From the NCBI RefSeq assembly GCF_000280905.1, contig NZ_ALAP01000052.1, positions 1 to 64,000 of the forward strand: a stretch of DNA of 64,000 nucleotides, given 5' to 3'. Below the pieces are notes generated by a model that saw only the letters and a program-made list of their open reading frames with translations, was not told the DNA's origin and did no database searches. The translations under genes were made by a program, and so were the position numbers. Shown here in pieces: positions 9,655 to 63,645 of the stretch. Source of the stretch: Streptomyces sp. AA1529 (GTDB lineage: Bacteria; Actinomycetota; Actinomycetes; Streptomycetales; Streptomycetaceae). The stretch's first letter is position 1. The number at the start of each line of letters is the position of its first letter.

Positions 9655-10860
9655 TCACGCCCGGGTGCCGCGTCCTGCCCAAGGGGAGTCGCTGTCGGCG
9701 AGCGTGAGGTGAACGGCGGCGAAATCGGCGGTGGCGATCAGTTCGGCGGCCGCCTCCAGCGGTCCGCTGCCCTCGGCCGGTTCCAGCTCGCTGAGTGCCG
9801 CTCCGTGCGCGTAGGCCAGGTCGCGGGCCGGCACGGTCGCGGAGTCGCCGCCGGGCGGTGCCTCACGGAGCAGGACGACGCGGACGCGGGTCGTCTGCTC
9901 GTCCTCGACCCGGTCGCGGAAGAAGTCGTCCTGGCCGGAGGCCGGGGCGAAGGGCCCGGTCAGCAGGGCTCCGTGCGCCGTCAGGGCCTCGGGCAGGCCC
10001 GCCGTGAGCGCGGGGCGCCCGCAGAGCGCGGCCAGGACCGCGGACCAGTGCCGCGCCGCGGCGCCCGCGACGCCGCCCTCGCTCCACAGCAGCGGTATCG
10101 AGCCCGCCAGTTCGACGGCGAGGGTCTTGCCGGGGTTGCTGTAGGTCGGCACGGCGGGACCGCAGCGTTCGGCGACCTCGTCCAGCCGGTCGGCGAGCCC
10201 GGCGAGCTCCGCGGGGCCGCTGCGGGTCAGTCCGAGGCGGTCGCACAGCAGCAGCAGCGGGGTGGTCAGGCTCCAGAAGGTGCCGGGTCCGCCGCCGGGC
10301 GGAGCGGCGGGGGCTGCGGGGTCCAGCGGGTGCCCGGGGTGGTCCGGCGGGGAGTGGCTCGCGTGCGGGGCCGGGGCCGGGGGCAGGGTGAGGCCGCGGG
10401 TCTCGCCGAGCGCGTCGGCCAGCGGGGTGCCGCGCGGGGTGACGGCGACGACGGAGCAGCCGCGCCGGTACGCCTGGTCGAGCAGCGCCGGGAGACCGGG
10501 TTCGGTGCCGTCCGGGGTGACGAGCAGCAGCAGGTCCAGCGGCCCGGCCCAGCCGGGCAGCGTCCAGCGCAGTGCGTCGCCGGTGGCCCGGGCGCCGGTG
10601 GGGCGCAGACCGGTGACGGGCAGGGAGCCGTTGGTGAGGGCGCCCAGCAGGTCCGTGACGCAGGCGACGGCGGTCCCCGGACCGGCGACCAGGAGCGCGC
10701 GGGGGCGGCCCTCGGGGCGGAGCGTGTCCACCCCCGCCTCGGCTGCCTGCCGGATGCCGGTGCGCACGTGCGCACCGGCCTGTGCGGCGCCGCGCAGCAG
10801 ACCGCGGGCGTCGGCGCGGGCCAGGTCCTCGGGGGCGTCGAGGAGCGTCTCGTCGAGCAT
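9655..10860 (-). CDS. SIS-domain phosphosugar isomerase-like protein
   Basis: A 401-residue cytoplasmic protein with two SIS-type halves, related to bifunctional phosphoglucose/phosphomannose isomerases. Matching regions are RALLVAGPGTAVACVTDLLG in the first half and TYSNPGKTLAVELAGSIPLLWSEGG in the second. A Pro/His-rich insertion of about 30 residues lies near position 210. The first-half glycine-rich sugar-phosphate loop is degenerate relative to active isomerases, so catalysis is uncertain. ATG at 10860 follows GGAGG at 8-nt spacing. Its position between manA and manB, conserved in Streptomyces as I recall, supports a role in hexose-phosphate interconversion or its regulation. Confidence 0.85.
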   Translation of the reverse strand: MLDETLLDAPEDLARADARGLLRGAAQAGAHVRTGIRQAAEAGVDTLRPEGRPRALLVAGPGTAVACVTDLLGALTNGSLPVTGLRPTGARATGDALRWTLPGWAGPLDLLLLVTPDGTEPGLPALLDQAYRRGCSVVAVTPRGTPLADALGETRGLTLPPAPAPHASHSPPDHPGHPLDPAAPAAPPGGGPGTFWSLTTPLLLLCDRLGLTRSGPAELAGLADRLDEVAERCGPAVPTYSNPGKTLAVELAGSIPLLWSEGGVAGAAARHWSAVLAALCGRPALTAGLPEALTAHGALLTGPFAPASGQDDFFRDRVEDEQTTRVRVVLLREAPPGGDSATVPARDLAYAHGAALSELEPAEGSGPLEAAAELIATADFAAVHLTLADSDSPWAGRGTRA

Positions 10861-11005
10861 CTTCCGTGCCTCCGATCGCTTCCGGTGCTGCGCGTGGCGG
10901 CAGCCACCGCGGGTGCGGCGCTCCGTCGGCACGTCGCCGGCTCTGCGCGGCGGCGCGTCCCGGTGGCGGCGCCGCCGTGTCGCCGGGTGCCGCGGCGGGC
11001 CCGGG

Positions 11006-11179
11006 TCAGGCGGGCCGGCGGGCCTCGTCCACCAGGAGCACCGGGATGCCGTCGCGTACGGGGTAGGCCAGGCCGCACTCCGCGTCCCCGGTGCACTGCA
11101 GTTCATCGCCCTCCTCACGCAGCGGCGCGTGGCACGCCGGACAGGCGAGGATCTCCAGGAGTCCGGCTTCGAGCGGCAT
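11006..11179 (-). CDS. Trm112-family small zinc-binding protein
   Basis: A 57-residue protein starting [20 protein letters not shown]. Cys13 and Cys16 (CPAC) pair with two more cysteines in CTGDAEC, giving a four-Cys zinc site, followed by the typical [17 protein letters not shown]. This matches the Trm112/YcaR family, whose members bind and activate methyltransferases in eukaryotes and archaea; bacterial roles are poorly defined. The start is well supported by GGAGGA just upstream of ATG 11179. A 52-bp hexanucleotide repeat begins 22 bp upstream of the start codon, inside the leader. Confidence 0.9.
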
Positions 11180-11200
11180 GTCTTCCTCCAGGTGCGGTGT

Positions 11201-11252
11201 GCGGCTGCGGCTGCGGCTGCGGCTGCGGCTGCGGCTGCGGCTGCGGCTGCGG
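11201..11252. repeat. GCGGCT hexanucleotide microsatellite
   Basis: Eight perfect tandem copies of GCGGCT plus GCGG lie between the manB stop codon and the Trm112-like start codon. The array is outside any supported gene. Read on the minus strand it is part of the leader in front of the GGAGGA ribosome site. Such arrays are prone to slippage. Confidence 0.95.
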
Positions 11253-11306
11253 TGACTGTGCCGTCAGGGTACCGCCGGGTGCGGTCGGCGGTACCGGGGG
11301 CGGCCG

Positions 11307-12692
11307 TCAGACCGTGAGGGTCCGCTCGCCCTCCGCCCGCACGATGGCCAGCACCTCGTCGCGGACCCGCTCGACGGTGGCGGCGTCGCGGGCCTCCACG
11401 TTCAGCCGCAGCAGCGGTTCGGTGTTGGAGGGGCGCAGGTTGAACCACCAGTTGACGCCGGTGACGGTGAGGCCGTCCAGCTCGTCCATGGTGACGCTCT
11501 CCCGGCCCGCGAAGGCGGCCTTGACGGCTGCCGTGCGGTTGAACTGGTCCTCGACGGTGCTGTTGATCTCGCCGGAGGAGGCGTAGCGGTCGTAGTGGGC
11601 GACGAGGCGGGAGAGGGTGCCGTCCTGTCCGCCGAGCGCGGCCAGCACGTGGAGGGCGGCGAGCATGCCGGTGTCGGCGTTCCAGAAGTCGCGGAAGTAG
11701 TAGTGGGCCGAGTGCTCGCCGCCGAAGATGGCACCCGTCCTGGCCATCTCCTGCTTGATGAAGGAGTGGCCGACGCGGGTGCGGACCGGCTGCCCGCCGC
11801 TCTCTCTGATCACCTCGGGGACCGACCAGGAGGTGATCAGGTTGTGGATGACGGTGGAGCCGGGCGCCTTGGCCAGCTCGCGCGAGGCGACCAGCGCGGT
11901 GATCGCGGACGGCGGGACCGGGTCGCCGTTCTCGTCCACCACGAAGCAGCGGTCGGCGTCGCCGTCGAAGGCCAGGCCGAGGTCGGCGCCGACCTCGCGG
12001 ACCCGGCGCTGCAGGTCGACGATGTTCTTCGGATCGAGCGGGTTGGCCTCGTGGTTGGGGAAGGTGCCGTCCAGCTCGAAGTACAGATCGTGGAGTTCGA
12101 GCGGCAGCCCGGACAGCACGAAGGGAACGGTCAGCCCGCCCATCCCGTTGCCCGCGTCGACCACGACCGTGAGCCGGCGGATGTGCGACAGGTCGACCAG
12201 GGAGTGCAGGTGCTCGGCGTACTCCGCGAGCATGTCCCGCCGGGTGACGGTGCCTTGGGGCTTGTCGGAGACGGGTGCGCCGCCGCCGTCCGACCACCGC
12301 TCCACCAGGGCGCGGATCTCGGCCAGCCCGGTCTCCTCGCCCACCGGTGCCGCGCCCGCCCGGCACATCTTGATGCCGTTGTAGCGGGCGGGGTTGTGGC
12401 TGGCGGTGAACATCGCGCCGGGCAGGTCGAGTTTGCCGCTGGCGAAGTACAGCTCGTCGGTCGAACACAGGCCGATCTCGGTGACGTCGGCGCCCTGTCC
12501 GGCCGCGCCCCGGCCGAACGCCCGGACGAGGCCGGGTGAGGAGGGCCGCATGTCGTGTCCGACGACGAGCGCCGAAGCGCCGGTGACATGGACGAAGGCG
12601 GCGCCGAACAGTTCGGCTGTCGCCTCGTCCCACTGGTCCGGCACCACACCGCGCACGTCGTACGCCTTCACGATCTGAGACAGATCAGCCAC
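11307..12692 (-). CDS. manB: phosphomannomutase / phosphoglucomutase
   Basis: A 461-residue alpha-D-phosphohexomutase converting mannose-6-phosphate to mannose-1-phosphate. The phosphoserine loop TASHNP is at residues 96-101 (Ser98), the magnesium loop is DGDADR in AFDGDADRCFVVDENG, and the C-terminal phosphate-binding loop is RPSNTEPLLRLNVEAR. It begins with GTG at 12692 behind AGGAGAGG. It is the first gene of the manB - Trm112 - SIS - manA group. Its product would feed the sugar-1-phosphate nucleotidyltransferase at 25152-26234. Confidence 0.96.
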   Translation of the reverse strand: MADLSQIVKAYDVRGVVPDQWDEATAELFGAAFVHVTGASALVVGHDMRPSSPGLVRAFGRGAAGQGADVTEIGLCSTDELYFASGKLDLPGAMFTASHNPARYNGIKMCRAGAAPVGEETGLAEIRALVERWSDGGGAPVSDKPQGTVTRRDMLAEYAEHLHSLVDLSHIRRLTVVVDAGNGMGGLTVPFVLSGLPLELHDLYFELDGTFPNHEANPLDPKNIVDLQRRVREVGADLGLAFDGDADRCFVVDENGDPVPPSAITALVASRELAKAPGSTVIHNLITSWSVPEVIRESGGQPVRTRVGHSFIKQEMARTGAIFGGEHSAHYYFRDFWNADTGMLAALHVLAALGGQDGTLSRLVAHYDRYASSGEINSTVEDQFNRTAAVKAAFAGRESVTMDELDGLTVTGVNWWFNLRPSNTEPLLRLNVEARDAATVERVRDEVLAIVRAEGERTLTV

Positions 12693-12776
12693 GGCCAGCC
12701 TCTCCTGGGTCGTCGGTCGTAAACGGTCCCAAATCTACCCGCGGCACGGAAGGGCGCCGTGCGGCAGCGCGGTGCG

Positions 12777-13175
12777 CTACGGCTCCGGGGGCCGCAGGAC
12801 CCTCAGATGGCCGCGCCGGGCGACCTCCGTCGCGTCGGCCTCGCCCGCCTCGGGCCCGCCCCGCCGGTCGCGCGGGGCCGGGCCCCGCGGGTCGGGGCGC
12901 GGTGTCCGGGCCGCCTCGCGCACGGCGTCGGCCAGGGCTTCCAGATCGTCGCCGCTGGGGCGGGCGGCGGCCGTGTCGACGGCGAGCCGGACCACCTCCC
13001 AGCCGCGTGGTGCGGTGAGCCGCTCGGAGTGCTCGGCGCACAGGTCGTAGCAGTGCGGCTCGGCGTAGGTGGCGAGGGGGCCCAGGACGGCGGTTGAGTC
13101 CGCGTAGACGTACGTCAGCGTCGCGACGGCGGGACGACCGCAAGCGGTGCGCGAACAGCGACGTACAGGGCTCAC
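12777..13175 (-). CDS. DUF3499 family protein
   Basis: A 132-residue actinobacterial protein of unknown function. Its N-terminus has a Cys-rich block (RRCSRTACGRPAVATLTYVY) and a second one (EPHCYDLCAEHSERL), which together could bind a metal. The C-terminal third is charged and low-complexity. I used GTG 13175 (MSPVRRCSRTAC) as the start, but it has no clear ribosome site. The frame stays open upstream with a plausible ATG at 13253, and the intervening residues look coding-like, so the true start may be further 5'. It is divergent from the metallopeptidase-like gene. Confidence 0.75.
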   Translation of the reverse strand: MSPVRRCSRTACGRPAVATLTYVYADSTAVLGPLATYAEPHCYDLCAEHSERLTAPRGWEVVRLAVDTAAARPSGDDLEALADAVREAARTPRPDPRGPAPRDRRGGPEAGEADATEVARRGHLRVLRPPEP

Positions 13176-13518
13176 AGCGTTGGACCGTACCGCACTCTTG
13201 AGCGGGCTGCGACGACTCGCCAGGACGTCACCCTGCCGTGTCGTCCGGGTCATCCGGGTTCTTCGGAAACGTCCGATCCGCTGAACGGCAGACCGAGAGG
13301 TCCGTCGCCCCCGCCCCCGGCCGGCCCGCGCAGCCGGCGGGCGCACACACCCCGGGCTGCGCGCCTGGTCATGGTCGGTCCCGGTGCCCGTTCCGCCGGA
13401 ACGGACGGCCGTCCCGGCGGCGTGGGCGCGATGCCGCCGTCCGCCGAAGCGGGCGCGGCGGCCCGCACCCGCCCGTCGCGCCCCGCACGGGCCCCGCGGC
13501 GGGCTACGCTCGGGGGCG
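13176..13518. other. divergent intergenic region
   Basis: The 343 bp between the DUF3499 gene and the zincin-like gene must hold both promoters. Part of it (to 13253) may be coding if DUF3499 starts upstream. No clear promoter, repeat or RNA was recognised. Confidence 0.4.
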
Positions 13519-13968
13519 ATGGACAGCCCCGTACCGCCGCGCCGGGCCGACTCCCGGCCGCGCCGCCGAGACCGCCACGGCCGCGGCATGCGCGGCCCCG
13601 TCGCCCCACCCCAAGTGCCGCTCGCCATCAGCCGGGCAGAGGCGTTCGACGATCTGGTGCGCGACTCGGTGACCCGCCTGGAGCGGCACTGGCCGCAACT
13701 GGCCGGTGTCGAGTTCGCCGTCCAGGAGGTGCCGCGGTCGGACAACGGGGAGGTGCGCGAGGGCGACGACGCCGTACCGCTCGGCCGGGTCACCGAGGGC
13801 GGCGGCGAGCACCCGGACCGTGTGATCGTCTTCCGGCGCCCGGTGGAGATCCGCAGCCGCAGCAGGGACGAGCGGGCCCTTCTGGTGCACGAGGTGGTGG
13901 TCGAGCAGGTGGCCGAACTGCTGGGCCTGGAGCCCGAGTCGGTGGACCCCCGCTACGGCCAGGACTAG
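13519..13968 (+). CDS. zincin-like (PF06262-type) protein, degenerate motif
   Basis: A 149-residue protein. An Arg/Pro-rich N-terminal 30 residues precede a small zincin-like fold (FDDLVRDSVTRLERHWPQL, VEFAVQEVP, VIVFRRPVEIRSRS). The helix that should carry the zinc motif HExxH reads HEVVVEQVAELLGL at residues 124-137, so the second histidine is Val128. The protein is therefore unlikely to bind zinc in the usual way. As I remember, Streptomyces relatives share this change, so it is probably not a sequencing error. ATG 13519 follows GGGGG. It converges on the DUF5719 gene. Confidence 0.75.
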   Translation: MDSPVPPRRADSRPRRRDRHGRGMRGPVAPPQVPLAISRAEAFDDLVRDSVTRLERHWPQLAGVEFAVQEVPRSDNGEVREGDDAVPLGRVTEGGGEHPDRVIVFRRPVEIRSRSRDERALLVHEVVVEQVAELLGLEPESVDPRYGQD

Positions 13969-14003
13969 GCACACCGCCACGGCCGGGACCGGGCACCCCG
14001 CCG

Positions 14004-14034
14004 GGAGCGGACGGTCCGGCCTCCCGTCCGCTCC
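14004..14034. terminator. bidirectional terminator hairpin
   Basis: A perfect 9-bp inverted repeat (GGAGCGGAC at 14004-14012, complement at 14026-14034) with a 13-nt loop sits in the 72-bp gap between convergent genes. Confidence 0.6.
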
Positions 14035-14040
14035 GTGCGC

Positions 14041-15690
14041 TCACTCGTCGTCGTTGAGCACCGACAGGTCCTGGGCCGACTCCGGTACGGCGACCGTGCT
14101 CCGGTCGTCGGGGAGCGTCTGCACGGTGAACCCGGGGACGCCGGACTGCTCGTGCTCCAACGTGCGGGAGGCGTAGACCGGGCCGCCCGAGAGGCGCTCC
14201 ACCGTCACCGCGTAGCCGCCCTTGCCGTCCGCGGGACGGGGCGGGGTGAACGCCTTGGTGGTGTGCCCCTTGAGCGTGACGGTGGTGCTCTTGGGGCTGC
14301 CGCCGCCGCTGCCCGGCGACGCGGTCACCCGCACCTTCGCGCCGCCCTCCGGGGCGGCCAGCGCCAGGGTGGTTCCGCTCGCGGTGTTGCCCGCGGCGGT
14401 GGCCCGCTTCTGCACGGGTGCCGTCGCCGGGATGAACGCCGTCTCCTGCTTGCTCCCCTTGCCGCGCAGCACCCGCGCCGCCGCCACCACGTCCGGGGCG
14501 TCGTCGCCGTCCTCGGCCGGGGAGAGCACCAGCGAGCCGGCCTCGCCCTTGATCAAGCCCTTGAGGTCGACGGTGGTGACCATGCCCGCCTTCACGTGCA
14601 GGGACTCGTGCCCGGCCGGGCTGATCCGCCCGGACTTGCCCGCGAGCTGCACCTTCAGGTCCGCGTCCGCGCCACCGGGGGCGAGCACCGAGAGCCGGAC
14701 CGCCGTCGCGTCCTCGGGAATGCCCGGCAGCACCTGGCCGGGCCCCGGGTCGGCGGAGGGCGCCAGCCAGTCACCGCCCAGCTTGCGGTCCGAGGACTGG
14801 ATCAGGGCCCCCACCCGGCCGGAGCGCGCGATCACATGCAGCGTCACGTTGGTGACCGGTTCGGGGGTCAGGGTGGACAGCAGCACGGGAACGGTGGCGT
14901 GCGGCGGGACGGTGATCCCCTTGCCGCTGCCCTGCCCGGCCTTCTCCTTGCCCTCCTTGCCGTACAGCTCCAGGTCGACGACCGCGGGGGTGCTGTCCGG
15001 GTTGGTGAGGTGGACGTAGTCCTGCCGGCCCTCGGCCGTGCCCGCGCCCGGGAACCAGAACGAGGTGTCCGGCACCGAGCAGGACGTGCCCTGCAGGCCG
15101 CGCCCCGCTCCGGCGGCGACGGTCGTCGTCTGCTGCACCGTCCAGCCCGGCGCGAAGGGGCCGTCGGCGGTGCCGGTCAGCGCGGGGGCCTCGGAGTCGT
15201 CCGTCTCCGCCGCGACGGGGGTGCCGGGGCTGCTGAGGGAGAGGAACGGCTTGCCGTTCCCCTTCCCGGCGGCGTCCTCGCCTGACGCACCGCCCTCGGA
15301 GCCCCCGCCGTCCTCGGAGTCGCCGTCCTTGGCGTCGTCCTTGTTCTTGTCCTGGTTCTTGTCCTTGCCGGACTCCTCGGAGTCGGACTCGCCGTTCTCC
15401 TCGCCGTCCGCGGGGTCCTGGGGGTCGGCGCGCTCGGCCGCGTACAGGGCCGCGCTGCCCTTCTTGCCGGGACCGCCCTTGGGCGTGAACGCCTCGTAGG
15501 CGGTCTCCGCGACATCGGACGTGCTCGGGGACGGGCAGACCAGCGTCGAGCGCTCGACCGGCTTGCGGGCCGCCGTCCCGACGCTCTCGGCGCTGCTCGC
15601 CGCCTCCTCGGGAGCGGTGAGCGCGGCGACGCCGGTCACCGCGGCGAGCGCGACGGCGACCGCTCCGACGCTGAGGACTGTGCGGTTCAC
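14041..15690 (-). CDS. DUF5719 family secreted/anchored protein
   Basis: A 549-residue protein with an N-terminal hydrophobic segment (residues ~5-25, a signal anchor or signal peptide). A strongly charged low-complexity stretch of Lys, Asp and Glu follows (about residues 100-150), then repeated beta-sandwich-like segments rich in Thr, Val and Gly. This suggests an extracytoplasmic all-beta protein. The GTG start at 15690 overlaps the TGA of the upstream glycosyltransferase gene by 4 nt, so the two are translationally coupled. That pairing suggests it works with the glycosyltransferase at the membrane surface. The biochemical function is unknown. Confidence 0.8.
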   Translation of the reverse strand: MNRTVLSVGAVAVALAAVTGVAALTAPEEAASSAESVGTAARKPVERSTLVCPSPSTSDVAETAYEAFTPKGGPGKKGSAALYAAERADPQDPADGEENGESDSEESGKDKNQDKNKDDAKDGDSEDGGGSEGGASGEDAAGKGNGKPFLSLSSPGTPVAAETDDSEAPALTGTADGPFAPGWTVQQTTTVAAGAGRGLQGTSCSVPDTSFWFPGAGTAEGRQDYVHLTNPDSTPAVVDLELYGKEGKEKAGQGSGKGITVPPHATVPVLLSTLTPEPVTNVTLHVIARSGRVGALIQSSDRKLGGDWLAPSADPGPGQVLPGIPEDATAVRLSVLAPGGADADLKVQLAGKSGRISPAGHESLHVKAGMVTTVDLKGLIKGEAGSLVLSPAEDGDDAPDVVAAARVLRGKGSKQETAFIPATAPVQKRATAAGNTASGTTLALAAPEGGAKVRVTASPGSGGGSPKSTTVTLKGHTTKAFTPPRPADGKGGYAVTVERLSGGPVYASRTLEHEQSGVPGFTVQTLPDDRSTVAVPESAQDLSVLNDDE

Positions 15691-18600
15691 TGCTGCTCGC
15701 TCCCGTCGCCGTTGCCGTACCTGTTGTCGTAGCCGTGCGTGCCCGCCCCGTCGTGGCCCTGCGGCTGGTCGTACGGCGCGGCGTACTGCTGGGCCGCGTA
15801 CTGCTGGGCCTGCCATTCCTCGTAGGACTGCTGCTGGTAGGCGTCGTAGCCGGGCTGGGCGCCGTAGTACTGCTGCTCCTGGTGCCCCTGGCCGTAGGGC
15901 TGCTGCGGGACCTGGCCGTAGGGGGCCGCACCGTAGGCGTCGTAGGCGCCGTAGGCGTCATAGGGGGACTGCTCGTAGGGAGCGGCCTGACCGTAGCCCG
16001 GGTCCGCGTACGGGGACTGCTGCGGCACATAGGGCTGCTGCTGTCCGTAGGGGTCGTACTCCGGCTGCGCGGGCACCGGTTGCTGACCGTAGGGGTCGTA
16101 CTCCGGCTGCTCCGGCATCGGCTGCTGCTGCAGATCCTGCGGCGGCGCCGGTTCGGGCGGCACCGGGGGCTGCTCCTGCGCGGACTGCGCGGGGGGCGCC
16201 TGCGCGGCCTCCGCCGCGGCGCGGAGCCGACGGGCCCTGCGGCCCTCTCCCGCCGCCGACGGATCGGGCGCCGCCGGCTCGGTCTCGGGCAGGTCGTCGT
16301 CCACGTCCCGGCGTCGACCCGGCAGCGCCAGGACGACGACGACCAGCAGGAGGAAGCCCTGTGTCCACACCCACGCGGTGTGCGGGAGGGGCGTCCGGTA
16401 GTCCAGCTCCAGCTTGCCGCCCTCGGTCGGCAGTTCGAAGCCCTGCGCCCAGCCGTCCACCGTGACGCTCCTGAGCGGGCTGCCGTCGAGGGTGGCCTCC
16501 CAGCCGTCGGCGGCGCGGTCCGCGAGCCGCAGCACCCGCCCGGAGGGGCCGGACGGCAGCGTCGCGTGCGAGGCCACCGGACCGGCCGGAACGGCCACCG
16601 GTGCCGTCACCGCGCCGCTCGCGCCCTTCTCCGGGTCGCCCGGGACGATCGAGACACGCGACACCTGGCGGTCGACCCGCCACAGCGCGCTGCCGTCCTC
16701 CTGGCTGAGCCGGGTCAGTCCGGGCGTGGCGTCCAGGGTGCGGCTCACCCGGCGCGAGGCGCCGTCGCGCAGCAGCACGTACCGGACCGCGTAGCCGCCC
16801 AGTTGGCTGGTCTGGTCGGCGCCGGACCCGGCCACGAGGTTGGAGACCACGCCGTCCAGGCGTCCGTCGTCGCCCTCGGCCGCCGCCAGGTCGGCGTCGC
16901 CCAGCCGGGCGCCCGCGCCGCGGGTGAGCGTGTAGGTGACACCCGTGGCGCCCTCGGGCTGGTCGAGGACCAGGGTGCGGGCCTGGTCGCTGGTGGTGCT
17001 CTCCTCGGCGACGAACGCGGGCACCTGCACCGGGTCGCGCCGGGAGAGCGGGCCGTCGGCGCCGCGCAGCATCCATCCCCCGGCGGCGACCAGCGGGGCG
17101 AGCACGCAGGCCGCGGCGACCAGGGCGGCGGCGGGCTGGCGCCAGCCGAAGCTCTGCGCCGCCACCCGCTCCTTGGCACCCTCGGCACCGACCGCGGCGG
17201 CGCACAGCAGCGCGAGCCCGTAGACGAGGGTGGCGGGACCGGCCCAGGCGGAGCCGTTGGACACCGCCGCCGCCAGCAGCGCCACCAGCGCGGCGGCCCA
17301 CGCGGCGGACACGGCGAGCCGCCGCTCGCTGCGCAGCAGGGCCGCGAGCCCGGCCAGCACCAGGCCGACGAGGAACAGCCCGTCCGTGGTCCCCGGGCCG
17401 CCCGGGGAGAGGGTCAGCAGGTCGAAGGCGGAGGCGGCGCCGGTGCCGTACTCCAGACCGGCCTCGCCCAGGAACTGCGCGGGGCTGGTGAACAGCGTCG
17501 GCGACCACGGCGCGAGCAGCACCAGCGGCGTCACCAGGACGGCGGCCAGCCGGGCCAGGAGCGCGCCGAGCGAGGCACCGTCCGCGCGGCGCACGGCGAG
17601 CACCGCGAGCGCCAGCACGGCGGCGATCAGCCACACGACGGGGGTGAACGCGGTCGTGAACGTCAGCAGCAGCGCGTAGGCCCAGGCCGCGCGCCAGCCG
17701 CCCTTGCCGCGCAGTCCGCTCGCCGCCACGGCGGCCCGCGCCAGCAGCGGCAGCAGTACGGCGAGCACGGCGGTGCCGATGCGGCCCTGGGCGAGCGCGC
17801 CGGTGGCGGCGGGCAGGAAGGCGTAGGCGACGCTTGCCCAGGCGCGCACCAGTCGGGAGTCGACCAGGGGGCGGGAGGCGAAGTAGGCGGTGACACCGGC
17901 GAGCGGGACCGAGCAGACCAGCAGCAGGGTCAGCGCGAACCCGGTGCTGCCGAACAGCAGGGTGGCGAAGGTGGCCAGGACGGCGAGGTAGGGGGGAGCC
18001 GAGACGGTGCCGCCGGTTCCCACCGGATGCCATCCCTCGGCGTAGCGCGCCCACAGCTCCGCGACCCCGTCGGGCGCGGGCAGCAGCGCACCGCCCGCCA
18101 GCGCGCCGCCGCCCAGCAGCGCCCGGCAGGCCACCAGGGAGACGACCAGCAGGACGGCGAACAGGACGGGCCCGGGCTGCTGTCCGAGCCGCTTGAGCCG
18201 CGCGAACTGTTCGACCTCCAGGAAGTCCGCGTCCTCGTCCCCGGGGCCCGTCTCGGCGGCGCCGTGCCGGCCCGCGGCGGAGGAGTCCGGTTCGGAGCGG
18301 CCGGGAAGGCTGCTGGTGGCCTGTTCGAGGGTGGCCCGCAGGGTGGCGCCGGGGGGCGGGAAGAGCGGCCGCAGCTCCTTGTGCGGGACGGCGGGCCTGC
18401 CCCGTCGGCGGCGGGCCGTCAGGATGCGGCCGCCGCGCAGCAGGGTGCCGGAGAGGCCGGTGATCTCGTCCAGGGCCTGTCCGGGCACCTTGCCGATGAG
18501 GTAGCCGAGGGTCCGCAGCACGGTGCCGACGACCAGGCGCAGCAGCACCCAGGGCAGCAGGGAGCCGGGCACGTTGGCGAGCAGGGTGTAGACGGCGCCC

Positions 18601-56787: not shown

Positions 56788-57996
56788 GTGCCCATACGTC
56801 TGCGGAACACCCTCCTCGCGGCGCTCGTGGTCGCCGGACTCACCGGCCCGGCAGCGGCGCCCGCCCTCGCCCAACCGCGCAGCGCACCGGCGGAGGTGAC
56901 GCGGCAGCAGGACGGCGGCCCCGACACCGCCGCGCTGGACAGGGCACTGGGCGGGCTGCCGGACGAGACGACCACCGCGGCGCTCGCGCGGGTCGGCGGG
57001 AAGGGGAGCTGGCACGGCAGTTCCGGCGTACGGGATCTGCGCACCGGCCGGAAGGCGCTGGAGCACGGGCGGTTCCGGGCCGGGTCCACCACCAAGGTGG
57101 TGACCGCGGCGCTGGTGCTGAAGCTGGCCTCGCAGGGCCGCATCGACCTGGACGGCACCGTGCAGCACTACCTGCCCGGGCTGCTGAGCGACGCGTTCGA
57201 GCCCGTCACCGTACGGCAGTTGCTCACCTTCACCAGCGGGCTCAAGCCCGGCGACGGCCTCGGCCCGGTCTCGGGAGCGGGATACGAGAACCGCTTCAAG
57301 ACCCTCACCCCCGAGCAGGTCGTCGCCTCGTCGGTCGCCAAGGGGCCCTACCGGGGCGCGGACGAGGGGCCCGGAAAGAAGCAGCGGTACGCCAACATCG
57401 ACTACACCGTGCTGGGCCTGCTCGTCGAGAAGGTCACCCGCGACTCCTACGCGCACCAGGCGTGGCTGCACGTGCTGCGTCCGGCCGGGATGCGGCACAC
57501 GTCCTTCCCCCGCGGCGCCGACCCGCGGATCCACGGTCCGCACAACCGCGGCTACCAGCGGCTGGACGACGGCCGCCTGGTGGACGCCACCGAGTGGAAC
57601 ATGTCCGACCGCTGGGCGGCCGGCGACATGATCTCCACCACCGCCGATCTGGAGCGCCTGCTGTTCGCCCTCTTCCGCGGCGAGATCGTGCCCCAGCCGC
57701 TGCTGGAGCGGGAGATGTTCACCGTGCCGGACATCGACGGCGCCACCATGAGCGCCGGACTCCAGCGGTACGACGCGGGCGGCGGCCTGGTGCTGTGGGG
57801 CAAGAGCGGGGCCCGCCCCGGCTACAACACGCTGCTGGTCGGCACCCGCGATCTGTCCCGGACCCTCGTCTACAGCCTCGACTCGACCGACGCCAAGGGA
57901 CCGACGATGAACCCGATAGGCGAGCGGCTGCTCGCCGCCGCGTTCGGCCCCTCAGCGGTTCCCCCGTCCGCGTCGGCGGCGCGGCGGACGCGCTGA
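56788..57996 (+). CDS. secreted serine hydrolase, beta-lactamase/DD-carboxypeptidase fold
   Basis: A 402-residue exported class C-type serine hydrolase. A signal peptide covers ~1-28 (ending LAQP region). Catalytic motifs are SxxK at Ser100-Lys103 (AGSTTKVV), YxN at Tyr201-Asn203 (RYANIDY) and KSG at 339-341 (WGKSGARPG). It could be a D,D-peptidase, esterase or beta-lactamase-like protein; R61-type D-alanyl-D-alanine carboxypeptidase is the nearest model. GTG 56788 gives a clean signal peptide; GTG 56776 is an alternative. Its last 45 bp overlap the convergent reductase gene. Confidence 0.9.
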   Translation: MPIRLRNTLLAALVVAGLTGPAAAPALAQPRSAPAEVTRQQDGGPDTAALDRALGGLPDETTTAALARVGGKGSWHGSSGVRDLRTGRKALEHGRFRAGSTTKVVTAALVLKLASQGRIDLDGTVQHYLPGLLSDAFEPVTVRQLLTFTSGLKPGDGLGPVSGAGYENRFKTLTPEQVVASSVAKGPYRGADEGPGKKQRYANIDYTVLGLLVEKVTRDSYAHQAWLHVLRPAGMRHTSFPRGADPRIHGPHNRGYQRLDDGRLVDATEWNMSDRWAAGDMISTTADLERLLFALFRGEIVPQPLLEREMFTVPDIDGATMSAGLQRYDAGGGLVLWGKSGARPGYNTLLVGTRDLSRTLVYSLDSTDAKGPTMNPIGERLLAAAFGPSAVPPSASAARRTR

Positions 57997-58929
57997 GGGC
58001 GTGCCCTCCACCACCGAGGCCACCGCGCGGGCGTAGTCGGCCAGGGTGCGGGGAGCCGTCCAGCCCCGGCGGCGGGCCCGGGTGACGTCGAGCACGACGC
58101 CGTGCGCGAGCTGGTCGACGGCGTACCGGGTCAGCGGCGGCTCGGCCCGCGGGTGCAGCCGCCACAGGTGTTCGGCGGCGGCGCCCGCCGCCCGGGCGAG
58201 CGGCACCGGGAGGTGCTCGACGCGGGCGTGCACCCCGTGCGCCGCCAGCACGGTGCGCACCGCCTCGTCCCGGCGGTAGGGCACCGGATCGGCGATGTTG
58301 TAGGCGCCGGGCGGCCATGCGTCGTCTCCCGCCGCCAGGCAGGCGTCGGCGAGGTTCTCCACCGCGGTCAGGCTGAGCTGGACGTCGCGACCCGGGAGCA
58401 GCAGCAGCCCGCGCCGCACCCGGCCCAGCAGCCGCGGCACCAGGTGCGGGTCGCCGACGCCGTAGACCGCGCGGGGCCGCAGCACCACGGCTCCGGCGGC
58501 CAGCGCCAGGGCCTCGCCCGCGGCCTTGGTCCGGCCGTAGGCGTTCAGTTGCGCGCGGACCGGGTGCTCCTCGCGGATCCGGGCCCGCCCGGGGCCCGGC
58601 GCGTACACGCTGGCGCTGCTGACCCACACCACCGGCCGCCCCGCTGCCGCCTCCAGCAGCCGGGCCGTTCCGGTGACGTTGACCGCCCGCATCGCCGCCT
58701 CGGCAGCCGAGCCCGCGGCCGGATCCCCCACGGCCGCCGCGCAGTGCACCACCACGTCGGCCCCGCCCAGGTCCGGCACCTCGCCCGAGGCGGCGTCCCA
58801 GCGCAGATGGCGGCCGACCGGGCCGGGCCGCCGCCCCACGCACCGCACCTCGGCTCCCCGCACGGCGGCGGCGCGTGCGACGTAGGAGCCGCAGAAGCCG
58901 CTCGCGCCGGTGACGGCGATCGTGGTCAT
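57952..58929 (-). CDS. extended SDR of 3-beta-HSD/OleD type
   Basis: A 325-residue NAD(P)-dependent enzyme. The nucleotide loop TGASGFCG is at residues 7-14, the catalytic Tyr131 and Lys135 in YGRTK, with VSSASVYAPG before it. The stretch LRPRAVYGVGDPHLVPRLLGR and the C-terminal EPPLTRYAVDQLAHGVVLDVTRARRRGW closely resemble OleD-type 2-alkyl-3-ketoalkanoate reductases and sterol dehydrogenases. It would reduce a beta-keto acid to a beta-hydroxy acid (inference). Last gene of the five-gene operon; its ATG overlaps the P450 stop (ATGA). The tail is Arg-rich. Confidence 0.85.
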   Translation of the reverse strand: MTTIAVTGASGFCGSYVARAAAVRGAEVRCVGRRPGPVGRHLRWDAASGEVPDLGGADVVVHCAAAVGDPAAGSAAEAAMRAVNVTGTARLLEAAAGRPVVWVSSASVYAPGPGRARIREEHPVRAQLNAYGRTKAAGEALALAAGAVVLRPRAVYGVGDPHLVPRLLGRVRRGLLLLPGRDVQLSLTAVENLADACLAAGDDAWPPGAYNIADPVPYRRDEAVRTVLAAHGVHARVEHLPVPLARAAGAAAEHLWRLHPRAEPPLTRYAVDQLAHGVVLDVTRARRRGWTAPRTLADYARAVASVVEGTPSARPPRRRRGRGNR

Positions 58930-60230
58930 GGTGCCTCCCCGTTCCGGTCGTTCCCGCCGTGCACGCCGTTCCCGCCGTGCACGCCGTTCGGGTGGGTGCT
59001 TCCCTCCTCGTCCCGGTGCATGCGCCGCCGCGGCGTCGAGGGGGCGGGGCCCGGCCGGACGGTGAGCGTGCGCCAGCCGGGCAGGGCCGCGCGGCGGTCG
59101 GCGCGGGCGCGGACGACGACGGGCCGGTACGGGGCGAGCGCGGCCAGCAGGTCGGCGAGCTGCGTGCGCGCGAGCCGGGCTCCGGGGCAGGTGTGCGGGC
59201 CCGCGCCGAAGACGAGCCGGGCGACGGCGGCGGGTGCCGGTGCGGGGCAGCCCGGTGCGTCCCGGTGTGCGCCGACCGCGTGCCGCGCGACCAGCACCAG
59301 CCGGTCGCCGCTCCGCACCGGGCAGCCGTCCAGTGTTCCGGGCGCGGCGGCCCGGCGGGGCAGCACCGGCGAGGGCGCCGTCACCCGCAGCAGTTCGTCG
59401 ACCAGGGTCTCGCGGGCCGCGGGATCGGCGGCCTGTTCCCACAGTCCGGCGTCCGCGCACCAGGCCACGGCCCGGGGCAGCGCCGCCGCGGTGGTGGCGA
59501 CCGCGGCGACCGCCAGCACGGCCCGCAGCGCCGCCCCGGTGCCCTCCGGTGTTCCTGCTCCGTCCGGTGTTCCGGCGCCGTCCGCCGCCCCGGCACCCTC
59601 CGCGGCGCCCCCGGTCCGCTCCCGCAGCAGTTCCTCCAGCCGGGCCGTGGCCCGGGCGGCCGCGCGTGCCGTGCCGGGGCGGCGCGGTCCTGGCAGGTGG
59701 TCGCGGACGGCGGCCGCCGCCGCATCGGCCGCGGCCCGCGCGACGGCGGCCGGATCGCCGGCGGTGCCCAGCAGGGCGCAGACCGTGGCGCCCGCCAGTT
59801 CGCGGGCGAGCGCGGCCGTCTCCACCTCGCGGCCGTCCGCCAGCGGGGCGAGGCGGCGGGCGAGGATCTCCTGCCACACCGGGCGCAGCCGCTCCGTACC
59901 GGCCGTGCCGAGGTCCTCGGCCAGGGACCGGCGGGCGCCGCGGTGGCCGCGGCCCTCCTCGTCGAACAGGGCGCCGCCGCCGGAGAGTTCGCGGGCGGCG
60001 CCGCCCGTGGTCCCGGCCGCCGTACGGTCCAGCGGCAGCCGGGTGAGGGCCTGCCGGCAGGCGTCCGTGCCGTGCACCAGCACGGTGCGGCCCAGCCGGA
60101 CCACCGGGCGGCGGCGGGTGGCCGCCAGCAGGGCGAAGAGCACCGGGTGGCTGCGGGTGTAGACGCGGCGGTCCCGGCGGCGGGCCGTCCGCGCGCCGGG
60201 CGTGCGGGCCCGCGCGCCCGGGCCCCTCAT
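58926..60230 (-). CDS. cytochrome P450
   Basis: A 434-residue P450. The haem loop is FGAGPHTCPGARL with Cys348, the K-helix ExxR is in VDELLRV, and the C-helix basic motif is HRGARRSL. The I-helix, expected to be (A/G)GxxTT with an acidic residue, reads VAAVATT, so the acid is Ala. The N-terminus is Arg-rich, and the end carries a low-complexity tail with repeated NGVHGG. Such enzymes hydroxylate or otherwise oxidise hydrophobic compounds. It overlaps both neighbours by 4 nt, so it is tightly co-translated with the adenylating enzyme and the reductase. Confidence 0.9.
   Translation of the reverse strand: MRGPGARARTPGARTARRRDRRVYTRSHPVLFALLAATRRRPVVRLGRTVLVHGTDACRQALTRLPLDRTAAGTTGGAARELSGGGALFDEEGRGHRGARRSLAEDLGTAGTERLRPVWQEILARRLAPLADGREVETAALARELAGATVCALLGTAGDPAAVARAAADAAAAAVRDHLPGPRRPGTARAAARATARLEELLRERTGGAAEGAGAADGAGTPDGAGTPEGTGAALRAVLAVAAVATTAAALPRAVAWCADAGLWEQAADPAARETLVDELLRVTAPSPVLPRRAAAPGTLDGCPVRSGDRLVLVARHAVGAHRDAPGCPAPAPAAVARLVFGAGPHTCPGARLARTQLADLLAALAPYRPVVVRARADRRAALPGWRTLTVRPGPAPSTPRRRMHRDEEGSTHPNGVHGGNGVHGGNDRNGEAP
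58951..58986 (-). repeat. 18-bp perfect tandem repeat in the P450 3' end
   Basis: Two identical 18-bp copies (58951-58968 and 58969-58986) encode the repeated NGVHGG units near the P450 C-terminus and keep the frame. Confidence 0.9.
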
Positions 60231-61735
60231 CGGTCCTCCGCGGCCCGGCCGCCCGCGGCCCGGCCCGCCGTCTCCCGGCGGCGCCCCGCGGCCAGCAGCG
60301 CGGTCGCGGCGCGGTCGGGCTTGCGGGAGCGGCCGGACAGCGGGATGTCGGCGAGCAGCACCGCGTCCGGTCGGGCCGCCCCCATGCGCCGCAGCGGCCC
60401 GTCCAGGGCGCCGCGCAGCCGCCGCCGGTCGGTGCCGGGGCTGGGCTGGACGACGGCGACGAGCTGCTCGTCGCCGTCCGGCGCCGGGACGCCCACCAGC
60501 AGCGCGAGGTCGACGCCCGGCACGTGCAGCGCGGGCTCGTACAGCCCCGGGTAGATGTTCTCCGCGCGGCGCAGCACCATGTCCTTCATCCGCCCTTCGA
60601 GCACGAGCCGGCCCCGGGCGTCCAGCTGGGCGCGGTCGCCGGTGGCGATCCACGGGTCGGGTTCCCCGCCGAGGCAGCGGTGCCGGGCGCCGGGGCCGGT
60701 GAGGAGGAGTTCGCCGCTGTCCGCGGTGCGCGCCTCGACGCCGGGCAGCGGCGCGCCCAGCAGGTCGCCCGGGCCTTCGTACGCCGCCTTGGCGGCCGCT
60801 TCGACGGCTGCGGCGGGGAAGAGTTCGGTCAGCGCGTACACGCCCCACGCCTCGGCGGCACCGGCCTGTCTGACCCGGCTGAGGAGGGCCGCGCTCGCGG
60901 GCGCGGAGCCGGTCCACACGCGTCCCGTGAAGCGGGCGCCGGCGGAGAGCGCGGCCCGCAGCCGAGGCGGCGTCAGATAGCTCGCCTGCGGCCGCAGCCG
61001 GTCGAGTTGCCGGGCCAGGACGCGGGGCGCCCGGGCGGGCAGCGCGACGGGGGCACCGGCGGCCAGTGCGGGGACGAGGACGAAGAAGGTGCCGCCGAGC
61101 ACGGGCCGCCCGGCCGCGGGCCGTACCAGGTCGGCGACCGTGGCCAGGCCGGCGGTGAGCGAGGCGCGGGAGTGCACGACGGCCCGGGGGCGGGAGGTGG
61201 TGCCGGAGGTGAAGACGACGACGGCGTCCCCGTCGTGGTCCGCGCCCCGCGGAGCCGGGTGCGGGCCGGCCCGCAGGGCGGGGGCGCAGCCCGGCAGCCG
61301 GGGCCCCGGCGTCGCCACCGGGCCGCCGAGTGCGGCGAGGTCGGGGAGGGCGAGCCGGGCGCGGCGGGCCAGCGGACGCGCCCACCCGGCGGCGGCCTGC
61401 GCCGCGGCGTCGGCGAGCACCAGGTCGGGCCGGGCCAGGGCGAGCCGGGCGCGCAGCACGTCGGGCCCCGCGCCGGGGTCGAGCACGGCGGCGCGCAGCC
61501 CGAGCCGCCAGGCGGCCAGCAGCACGGCCAGGGCGCGGGGTCCGGGCCGTACGGCGACGCCGAGGGTGTCGCCGGGCCGCAGGCCGCGGTGGTGGAGGGC
61601 GGACGCGTAGTGGTCGGCCAGGTCGGCCAGGTCGCCGCGGGTGGCCCGGACCCGGGTGCGGCCGGTGGGTGCGGTGGTCAGGACGGCGGGCAGGTGCGGG
61701 TCGCGGCGCAGCGCGGCGTGCAGGGTGTCGAGCAT
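60227..61735 (-). CDS. class I adenylate-forming enzyme (acyl-AMP ligase / OleC-like)
   Basis: A 502-residue ANL-superfamily enzyme. ATP loop VVFTSGTTSRPRAVVHS, the A5-like AWGVYALTELFP, the A7/A8 region WIATGDRAQLDARGRLVLEGRMKD, and the C-terminal lysine in GRSRKPDRAA are present. It could form a fatty acyl-CoA or acyl-AMP, or act like OleC, which makes a beta-lactone from a beta-hydroxy acid. The A8 block (LRRAENIYPGLYEP) looks more like ordinary acyl-CoA ligases than OleC as I remember it, so the exact reaction is open. It shares one base with the upstream glycosyltransferase gene (TGATG) and 4 nt with the P450. Confidence 0.87.
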   Translation of the reverse strand: MLDTLHAALRRDPHLPAVLTTAPTGRTRVRATRGDLADLADHYASALHHRGLRPGDTLGVAVRPGPRALAVLLAAWRLGLRAAVLDPGAGPDVLRARLALARPDLVLADAAAQAAAGWARPLARRARLALPDLAALGGPVATPGPRLPGCAPALRAGPHPAPRGADHDGDAVVVFTSGTTSRPRAVVHSRASLTAGLATVADLVRPAAGRPVLGGTFFVLVPALAAGAPVALPARAPRVLARQLDRLRPQASYLTPPRLRAALSAGARFTGRVWTGSAPASAALLSRVRQAGAAEAWGVYALTELFPAAAVEAAAKAAYEGPGDLLGAPLPGVEARTADSGELLLTGPGARHRCLGGEPDPWIATGDRAQLDARGRLVLEGRMKDMVLRRAENIYPGLYEPALHVPGVDLALLVGVPAPDGDEQLVAVVQPSPGTDRRRLRGALDGPLRRMGAARPDAVLLADIPLSGRSRKPDRAATALLAAGRRRETAGRAAGGRAAEDR

Positions 61736-62541
61736 CAGCGGGGGTCCTCTCCGTGCCGGCCCGGCCCTTTGTCGAGGTACCAGCGTGCGGTGGTCAGCAG
61801 TCCGTAGGCGCGCAGCCGCCGGGTGGAGTTGGCCACGACCATGCGGCGCTCCCGGACGACGGCCGCGGTGGTGCGGCGGACCCGGTTGAGGAAGAGCCGG
61901 TCGGTGGGCGAGGGGCGGCGCGGCATGCCGCCGGCGTCCTCGTAGAGCCGGGCGGTGAGGGCCATGTTGTTGCCCGCGTGCATCCGGTAGGGCACCAGGT
62001 AGCCGCGGCCGCGCCGGTGTGCGGGGCGCAGCCGTCCGAAGAGTGCCGCGAGGGCGACCAGCAGGCGGAAGGCGGCGCGGCCCGCCGGTCCGTGCTCGTC
62101 CCGGCGGGCTGTGATGCGGCCGCAGACCAGTGCGGCTCCGGCGTCGAGCGCGGCGCGCGCGGCGGCGGTCCAGCCGGGCCGGGGCAGGCAGTCGGCGTCG
62201 GTGCGGGCGAGCTGTGTGGCGCCGTGCGCGATGGCGTGCCGGAATCCGGTGTCCACGGCGCATCCGACGCCTTTCTGCGGTTCGGTGACGACATGCACGG
62301 GGAACGGCGCCCGCCGGGCGAAGTCGCGGGCGAGGCCGGCGGTGCCGTCGGTGGAGGCGTTGTCGACGACCAGGAGGGTGAAGTCCCGGTCGGTCTGGGC
62401 CGCGAGCGCGGCCAGGGTGCCGGGCAGCCGCGCGGCCTCCTGGTGGGCGGGGACGACGACCCACAGCGCTCCGGCGGGCCGGGCCGCTGCCGCCGCCCGG
62501 GCGGGCGGTGCGGGGGCCGGGGAGGATCGGTCCGGTGTCAT
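61735..62541 (-). CDS. family 2 glycosyltransferase
   Basis: A 268-residue GT-A fold enzyme (LWVVVPAHQEAARLPGTLAAL, VVDNASTDGTAGLARDF, metal site RTDADCLPRPGW, and MHAGNNMALTARLYEDAGGMPRRPSPTDRLFLNR). A hydrophobic stretch lies near residues 155-170. It is second in the operon, coupled by ATGA to the synthase and by TGATG to the adenylating enzyme. It may glycosylate the operon's lipid product (inference). ATG 62541 has a GGGAGC site. Confidence 0.9.
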   Translation of the reverse strand: MTPDRSSPAPAPPARAAAAARPAGALWVVVPAHQEAARLPGTLAALAAQTDRDFTLLVVDNASTDGTAGLARDFARRAPFPVHVVTEPQKGVGCAVDTGFRHAIAHGATQLARTDADCLPRPGWTAAARAALDAGAALVCGRITARRDEHGPAGRAAFRLLVALAALFGRLRPAHRRGRGYLVPYRMHAGNNMALTARLYEDAGGMPRRPSPTDRLFLNRVRRTTAAVVRERRMVVANSTRRLRAYGLLTTARWYLDKGPGRHGEDPR

Positions 62542-63575
62542 GCCTGCTCCCAGACCATCGTCATGAGGCTGACGCCGCCGCCGAGGCCGACGAGGAGGAC
62601 GCGGTCGCCGGGCTCCAGCCGGTCGTGGATCAGGTCCAGTTGGACGCCGAGGGTGGCGCTGGCGAGGTTGCCGAGTTCGGGCACGGTCACCACCAGCCGG
62701 TCCCGGGGCACCCCGGTCAGCTCCACGAAGCGCTCCAGGTACGGCAGCGTCACCTGGTGGACGAGGATGTGCCGGAAGTCCTGCCACTCCAGCCCGGTGC
62801 GGTGCCGCATCCGGTCCAGCACCGAGGTGCCGACCTTCTCGAACACGTCGCGCAGCTCGGCGCCGTCGCCGCGGAACCAGGTGTACTCGTCGCCGCGCGG
62901 ATGGCGGGAGCCGCCGCCGGGTATCCCGCCGACGTCCCAGTGCTCGGAGCGGGTCTCGGTGCCGATGTCGAGGATGCCGCCGCCGGGCACGGGCTCCAGG
63001 ACCACGGCCGCACCGGCGTCGCCGAAGGTGTATCCGGCGAACACCTCCCGGAACCGGTCCAGGTCCGCGGGGGCGTGCTGCACGGCGCGGCTGGGGGTCT
63101 CCCCCGTGACGACGAGGGCCCGGTGCGCCCGGCCGGCCAGCAGCATGCCGCGGGCGAGGTCGATCCCGCCGACGAAGCTGTTGCAGGCGTTGGTGACGTC
63201 GAGCGCGTGCGCCCGGGAGCCCAGTGCGTGCTGCACGATGTGCGCGGTGGCGGGTTCGGCCACGTCGCGGGTGGCGGAGGCGAACAGGAGCAGGTCGATG
63301 TCCGGCGGGGCGAGCCCGGCCCGCTCCAGTGCCGTCCGGGCGGCGCGGACGGCCAGGGTGGAGGCGTACTCGCCGTCGGCGGCGACGCGGCGGGTCCGGA
63401 CGCCGGTGGCCCGCTCGATCATCCGCGGCGGAACCGGCAGGCCGCTGCGCGCGACGACGGTACGGCGGAGCTGCTCGGAGTCCACGATCCGCTCCGGCAG
63501 CGCCGCACCGACCCCCGTGATGCCCACGCCCGGTGCCGCGGCGGGCCGGTCGGCGCAGGTGCTGTGTATCCCCAT
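62538..63575 (-). CDS. thiolase-fold ketoacyl synthase III, OleA-like
   Basis: A 345-residue condensing enzyme. The catalytic triad is Cys131 (DVTNACNSFVGG), His273 (ILVHQVTLPYL) and Asn303 (ELGNLASATLG). Glu107 in the segment RDVAEPATAHIV sits near where OleA enzymes carry their second catalytic glutamate. OleA joins two acyl-CoAs head to head to a 2-alkyl-3-keto acid; a FabH-like role is the alternative, but no other fatty-acid synthesis gene or ACP is nearby. First gene of the operon. The ATG at 63575 lacks a clear ribosome site, so the transcript may be leaderless or start internally. Confidence 0.87.
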   Translation of the reverse strand: MGIHSTCADRPAAAPGVGITGVGAALPERIVDSEQLRRTVVARSGLPVPPRMIERATGVRTRRVAADGEYASTLAVRAARTALERAGLAPPDIDLLLFASATRDVAEPATAHIVQHALGSRAHALDVTNACNSFVGGIDLARGMLLAGRAHRALVVTGETPSRAVQHAPADLDRFREVFAGYTFGDAGAAVVLEPVPGGGILDIGTETRSEHWDVGGIPGGGSRHPRGDEYTWFRGDGAELRDVFEKVGTSVLDRMRHRTGLEWQDFRHILVHQVTLPYLERFVELTGVPRDRLVVTVPELGNLASATLGVQLDLIHDRLEPGDRVLLVGLGGGVSLMTMVWEQA

Positions 63576-63645
63576 GCCCGGGAGGTTAGGAAGCCGGGGC
63601 GGGCGCGGACATGAGTGCGGATACTCAGGTGCCGGCGCCGGGTAC

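Follow-up and report, generated by a model that had tools for sequence, protein, structure and literature searches.

Beta-lactones are reactive warheads in drugs and enzyme inhibitors, and their OleB-free pathways have two ketosynthases and a nonribosomal peptide synthetase (NRPS). Such pathways are, according to parts of a 2020 paper (PMC7064751), those of lipstatin in Streptomyces toxytricini and of Nocardia brasiliensis. The same parts describe a region of Actinoplanes atraurantiacus, in a genome without oleB, that encodes OleA, a glycosyltransferase, OleC, a cytochrome P450 and OleD, and predict a hydroxylated, glycosylated beta-lactone from it. Here we describe an operon of Streptomyces sp. 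AA1529 that matches this region in its five domains and their order, in lacking OleB and in its predicted product class. It occupies positions 57952 to 63575 on the minus strand of a 64,000-nucleotide stretch (the window), part of contig C52. The draft genome totals 7.28 Mb in 108 contigs, with a completeness estimate of 100%.

The window operon is a Streptomyces member of an already described kind, and the idea is in print. An earlier reading of this locus from its letters (the original prediction) held that no described pathway has exactly this set. That part falls, as PMC7064751, so far as its parts go, gives the same domains, order and prediction, while the likeness to OleA and OleD and the missing OleB are supported. 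The A. atraurantiacus region differs in organism and is compared here by its published gene content. Searches of an open-access library listed no further account of the gene set, and no report of its product was found there. New here are the breadth of the gene set, a second glycosyltransferase with an inferred six-gene ancestor, the position of the ligase beside OleC, a gene swap in Micromonospora, and a conserved palindrome.

The OleABCD/OleBC olefin pathway, of which 15 actinobacterial loci were found, shares with the window operon the Glu-Pro base of OleA, an OleD-like reductase and an OleC-related ligase. The window operon differs in having a glycosyltransferase and a P450 but no OleB or OleBC, and its ligase and ketosynthase form branches of their own. 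With the OleB-free pathways it shares enzymes of the OleA, OleC and OleD kinds; it has, however, one ketosynthase instead of two, and the glycosyltransferase and P450 stand in place of the NRPS.

The sequence evidence leads us to lean towards an operon for a secondary metabolite, of the OleA/OleD/OleC kind without OleB, which would produce a glycosylated, oxidised beta-lactone lipid. The ketosynthase would condense two acyl-coenzyme A (acyl-CoA) chains head to head, using Glu107 as the base and releasing no CO2, and the reductase would convert the resulting beta-keto acid to a 2-alkyl-3-hydroxy acid. The ligase would then adenylate this acid and close the beta-lactone, which would not be turned into an olefin because OleB is missing. 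The P450 would oxidise an alkyl chain and the glycosyltransferase would add a sugar.

A conserved unit of five genes

Reading the minus strand and translating it bears out the five overlapping genes of the original prediction. The first, KS, encodes an OleA-like ketosynthase III (62538..63575, 345 aa), assigned by NCBIfam and Pfam and by the residues Cys131, His273, Asn303 and Glu107-Pro108. It is followed on the same strand by GT2, a family-2 glycosyltransferase (61735..62541, 268 aa; PF00535, 77.9 bits), and by LIG, an adenylating enzyme that stands beside OleC in trees (60227..61735, 502 aa; PF00501, 117.6 bits). The last two are P450 (58926..60230, 434 aa; PF00067, 23.4 bits with a cut-off of 22.8) and SDR, an OleD-like short-chain dehydrogenase/reductase of the epimerase type (57952..58929, 325 aa; best NCBIfam models NF042422 and NF042423). 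The four junctions, from KS/GT2 to P450/SDR, overlap by 4, 1, 4 and 4 nt. Related loci offer a possible start for the following gene that would overlap the stop before it by exactly 4 or 1 nt at all 74 KS/GT2 junctions, at 61 of 73 GT2/ligase junctions, at 55 of 62 P450/SDR junctions and at 20 of 37 direct ligase/P450 junctions. This recurrence is more than chance. The overlaps of 1-4 nt are as originally described; co-translation of the five proteins, claimed together with them, is what they suggest. Over all five genes the ratio of nonsynonymous to synonymous substitution (dN/dS), taken against four relatives, is 0.18-0.40.

Of 150 Streptomyces genomes, 15 have relatives of KS at E 1e-60; for the class the figure is 33 of 394 genomes, and AA1529 is included in both counts. 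A scan of named genomes gave 306 encoding stretches, of which the best 80 were retained for examination; these 80 belong to the families Streptomycetaceae and Micromonosporaceae, where they span nine named genera. Several of the loci come from the same strains as in the Streptomyces and class counts. Among named genomes, the operon of Streptomyces qinglanensis (L039) is nearest, with a KS that is 97% identical. Gene content was counted in the 67 loci that extend 5.5 kb or more downstream. KS, GT2, LIG, P450 and SDR are all present in 64 of them, in the same order as in the window in the loci listed, so the search for this set in other genomes that had been proposed finds it, and the five genes are a conserved unit. 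The three exceptions are L080, which has lost the middle genes, and the Micromonospora variant (L102 and L104) described below. A compact operon conserved in nine named genera, with no product report found, is a clear target for product isolation.

A second GT2 gene lies between LIG and P450 in 24 of the 64 full loci. Because it also occurs in the diverged locus L221 and as a fragment in L045, we infer a six-gene ancestor that lost the second GT2 in the lineage of the window, where none is present. The second GT2 was rejected as a required part of the set, none being detected in 40 of the 64 full loci. Some copies of the operon appear broken or truncated, in draft genomes. L031 and L080 keep KS and a split-frame match to SDR but have lost GT2, the ligase and P450, as in a decaying copy.

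Ketosynthase, reductase and ligase

That KS is OleA-like is supported by its Glu-Pro motif and by the genes that accompany it. Cys131, His273 and Glu107-Pro108 are each found in 81 of 81 aligned rows, and Asn303 in 80. Glu107 aligns with the Glu of OleA, which is followed by Pro at OleA position 117. According to parts of PMC7064751, this OleA residue acts as the catalytic base from the neighbouring subunit, a mechanism that only OleA homologs have among the thiolases characterised. In a wider comparison the Glu-Pro pair is present in all 47 rows from OleA, Nlt-like, family and distant-family proteins, and none of 5 of the AA1529 genome's own ketosynthases III (KSIII) has it; two of the seven KSIII matches that this genome has besides KS were excluded, as were the NltB-like rows. 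The labels NltA-D were placed on L144 (genome G377) by analogy with nocardiolactone genes.

Several results weigh against this assignment. On NF006720, the model best hit by true OleA, KS scores 153.9 bits and remains below the cut-off of 285. Two OleA proteins reach 424-430 bits, while an Nlt-like ketosynthase (135.7) and a ketosynthase beside Nlt-like genes (140.1) are also below the cut-off. KS scores slightly higher, 169 bits, on a FabH model, and PqsD and FabH chains outscore OleA in phmmer with KS as the query. In trees KS forms its own branch between OleA and KSIII, and the side on which it falls depends on the root. A midpoint-rooted tree groups the family with the genome's own KSIII (support 90). 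In a smaller tree the own KSIII were chosen as the root, and 19 rows of the larger tree were dropped (10 family rows, L104, 4 OleA, two long-branch own KSIII, and NltB and its like). Placement between OleA and FabH, which had been proposed as a check, gave no firm grouping with FabH and no membership inside the OleA clade either. In addition, parts of PMC7064751 report that the OleA of A. atraurantiacus cleaved a p-nitrophenyl ester, and that little of it could be purified, which in a limited test did not react with C8-C16 acyl-CoAs.

The phmmer ranking and the higher score on the FabH model would fit another pathway, in which KS is a decarboxylating condensing enzyme of the FabH/PqsD type and LIG, an ordinary acyl-CoA ligase, loads a starter, giving a short glycosylated, oxidised acyl compound. 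This seems quite unlikely, as Glu-Pro is conserved in every aligned KS row and is lacking in all own KSIII examined, and OleC- and OleD-type genes lie alongside. OleA structures also top the fold list of the KS model, though FabH follows within about 1.5 Z, a weak lead from a model with a mean predicted local distance difference test (pLDDT) of 74.8.

For SDR, the OleD models NF042422 (104.8 bits) and NF042423 (89.5 bits) are the top two of 9, both below the 580 cut-off. As the best curated matches they support, together with the gene company, the OleD likeness seen originally; the SDR tree has no outgroup beyond OleD kinds. The absence of OleB was confirmed within the operon, and no standout OleB is found elsewhere in the genome, where one actinobacterial OleB, taken as the query, scores 64 bits at best, although a very divergent OleB could escape this search. 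Among ten compared genomes, the eight with OleB or OleBC beside OleC gave 128-446 bits and the two without gave 97 and 55; with the same query, generic, unrelated hydrolases of the OleB genomes score up to 114 bits.

The adenylating enzyme was fairly called the weakest link, since trees favour the OleC neighbourhood and scores do not. LIG aligns with OleC along its length. In the largest tree it adjoins the OleC/Nlt-like clade without being inside it, separated from 31 other adenylating enzymes with a Shimodaira-Hasegawa-like approximate likelihood ratio test (SH-aLRT) support of 100, and smaller trees place it beside the same clade with a support of 99. Each of the three groups forms one side of a branch, so LIG is a sister of OleC only if the tree is rooted among the 31 other enzymes. 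The genome's own ligases were drawn from 50 AMP-binding matches, 17 of which were taken and 16 had a profile match; 14 were used in one tree and 11 in the largest. The largest tree also has 20 of 24 near ligases, 4 being dropped for length. These 24 were chosen from 30 loci by excluding 3 family, 1 Nlt-like and 2 other ligases.

The scores speak against OleC. LIG has 93.5 bits on NF006754 (cut-off 478), where five OleC or Nlt-like ligases have 343-598, and 50.3 bits on NF045786 (cut-off 900). The best match of a distant-family ligase is PRK06187, and a search of 12 genomes with LIG found ordinary ligases of up to 56.5 bits, above an Nlt-like ligase at 37. Classing LIG by profile score was tried and rejected, as OleC/Nlt-like ligases (19-70 bits) overlap the own ligases (up to 55 bits), which also points away from OleC. 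The check proposed for the ligase is thus positive for its place beside OleC in trees and negative for separation by pairwise or hidden Markov model scores. OleC structures do not appear in one structure-match listing, which carries no weight.

That LIG does not score as OleC, and that the Lys of its P-loop is replaced by Arg in all five close family rows shown, would suit an enzyme that makes the acyl-AMP or acyl-CoA of the hydroxy acid or of a precursor and no lactone. The product would then be a glycosylated beta-hydroxy lipid. We regard this as unlikely, because LIG stands beside OleC in trees and because L102 and L104 have an OleC-clade ligase in its place. If LIG does form lactones, its branch would extend the known range of lactone synthetases.

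Micromonospora variant, P450 and glycosyltransferase

In the Micromonospora loci L102 and L104, KS and P450 are followed by a ligase of the OleC/Nlt-like clade and an SDR of the OleD/Nlt-like clade. Their KS is nested within the KS family of the window in the tree, and no GT2 was detected in either locus (about 21 kb). In L102 an NRPS-like protein with AMP-binding and carrier domains follows, so that the same KS is found with the Nlt-like ligase, SDR and NRPS of the OleB-free pathways. At about 9900-17900, L102 and L104 possibly hold a lipstatin-like cluster with a P450. Because this is a natural swap beside the same KS and P450, LIG and SDR would do the jobs of OleC and OleD in the window operon. 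The two loci argue for a tie of KS and P450 to beta-lactone-type pathways.

Among 20 more distant KS loci, 11 keep GT2 and LIG, 5 have an Nlt-like ligase and SDR without GT2, and 4 have neither. P450 lies between GT2 and LIG in 8 of the 11, and L221 has the full six-gene order. L232, L233, L234, L236 and L239, from Streptomyces and another family, have KS, the Nlt-like ligase and SDR but no GT2, and are candidates for simple beta-lactone operons. A second arrangement, mostly KS-GT2-P450-LIG-SDR, is found in L222-L230 and L240 from other actinobacterial families, with a different P450 (about 30% identical).

GT2 belongs to family 2 by its Pfam score, its predicted GT-A fold and a DxD-type motif, whose D115 and D117 are invariant in 25 of 25 rows. 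Its best structural matches are the fucosyltransferase WrtF and the mannosyltransferase PcManGT, and no membrane part is seen in its sequence as judged by eye.

The residue before the I-helix Thr of a P450 is usually acidic. In the window family it is Asn, Thr or Ala, and acidic in none of the 24 rows without stops, which counts against an oxidising P450. The best NCBIfam match of P450, moreover, is TIGR04515, a P450-derived glycosyltransferase activator (40.7 bits, cut-off 343). Both observations would agree with a P450 that is no oxidase and serves to activate the glycosyltransferase, as EryCII does for EryCIII, itself of the GT1 class. We consider this role very improbable. The heme Cys and the ExxR motif are retained in all 24 rows, while EryCII-type proteins have no heme Cys, according to parts of PMC3391682; the window and the EryCIII/EryCII pair share a glycosyltransferase encoded together with a P450-fold protein, but the window enzyme is of family 2. 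Furthermore, because L102 and L104 retain P450 although no GT2 was detected there, it would be more than a helper of the glycosyltransferase, and oxidation of an alkyl chain is the role we prefer.

Palindrome and surroundings of the operon

A palindrome, TGAGTATCCGCACTCA, lies at 63612..63627 on the minus strand, 36 nt before the start of KS, and is kept near the KS start in relatives. A single match in the window is unremarkable by itself, since 29 of 100 shuffles also have one, and the claim therefore rests on conservation. Of 80 loci, 67 carry TGAGTNNNNNNACTCA close to the KS start with no more than one mismatch, 23 of them exactly; among 1540 equally long stretches drawn at random from these loci, 16 have such a match. 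The palindrome is likely to be an operator or promoter element, and a TAACCT just before the start codon hints at a -10 box and at leaderless transcription. The palindrome was not found in a literature search. As it is shared, it offers a handle on what turns the pathway on. More tentatively, the operons may represent a widespread actinobacterial class of glycosylated, oxidised beta-lactone lipids, with a lactone synthetase branch sister to OleC and a shared palindromic promoter control.

There are two exact copies of the palindrome in the AA1529 genome, and no gene was called at the second (L272). The stricter TGAGTACNNGTACTCA is found in 37 of 41 Streptomyces genomes, with up to 5 sites each; a control gave one match in each of 4 genomes. 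For 30 of its sites (L272 and L274-L302), 19 frames were called, 10 of which start 28-38 nt downstream, and the frames are mostly unrelated to each other. TGAGTACNNGTACTCA, which often stands some 30-38 nt ahead of the start codons of unrelated genes, may mark a small regulon of one regulator. Among the genes after it, a phytoene-dehydrogenase-like enzyme (L288) and an SRPBCC protein (L283) were recognised by eye.

No flanking gene is common to all relatives, by a crude gene calling that is unreliable at this guanine-cytosine (GC) content. In the window, an imidazolonepropionase-like frame, read by eye, lies upstream on the same strand, with 70 nt between its end and the KS start. Downstream, a convergent gene for what by eye is a serine hydrolase has its end overlapping that of SDR by 45 nt (57952-57996). 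The GC content of the operon is 79.5%, compared with 72.8% for the rest of the window, and in 7 of 7 relatives checked it is also above that of the surroundings.

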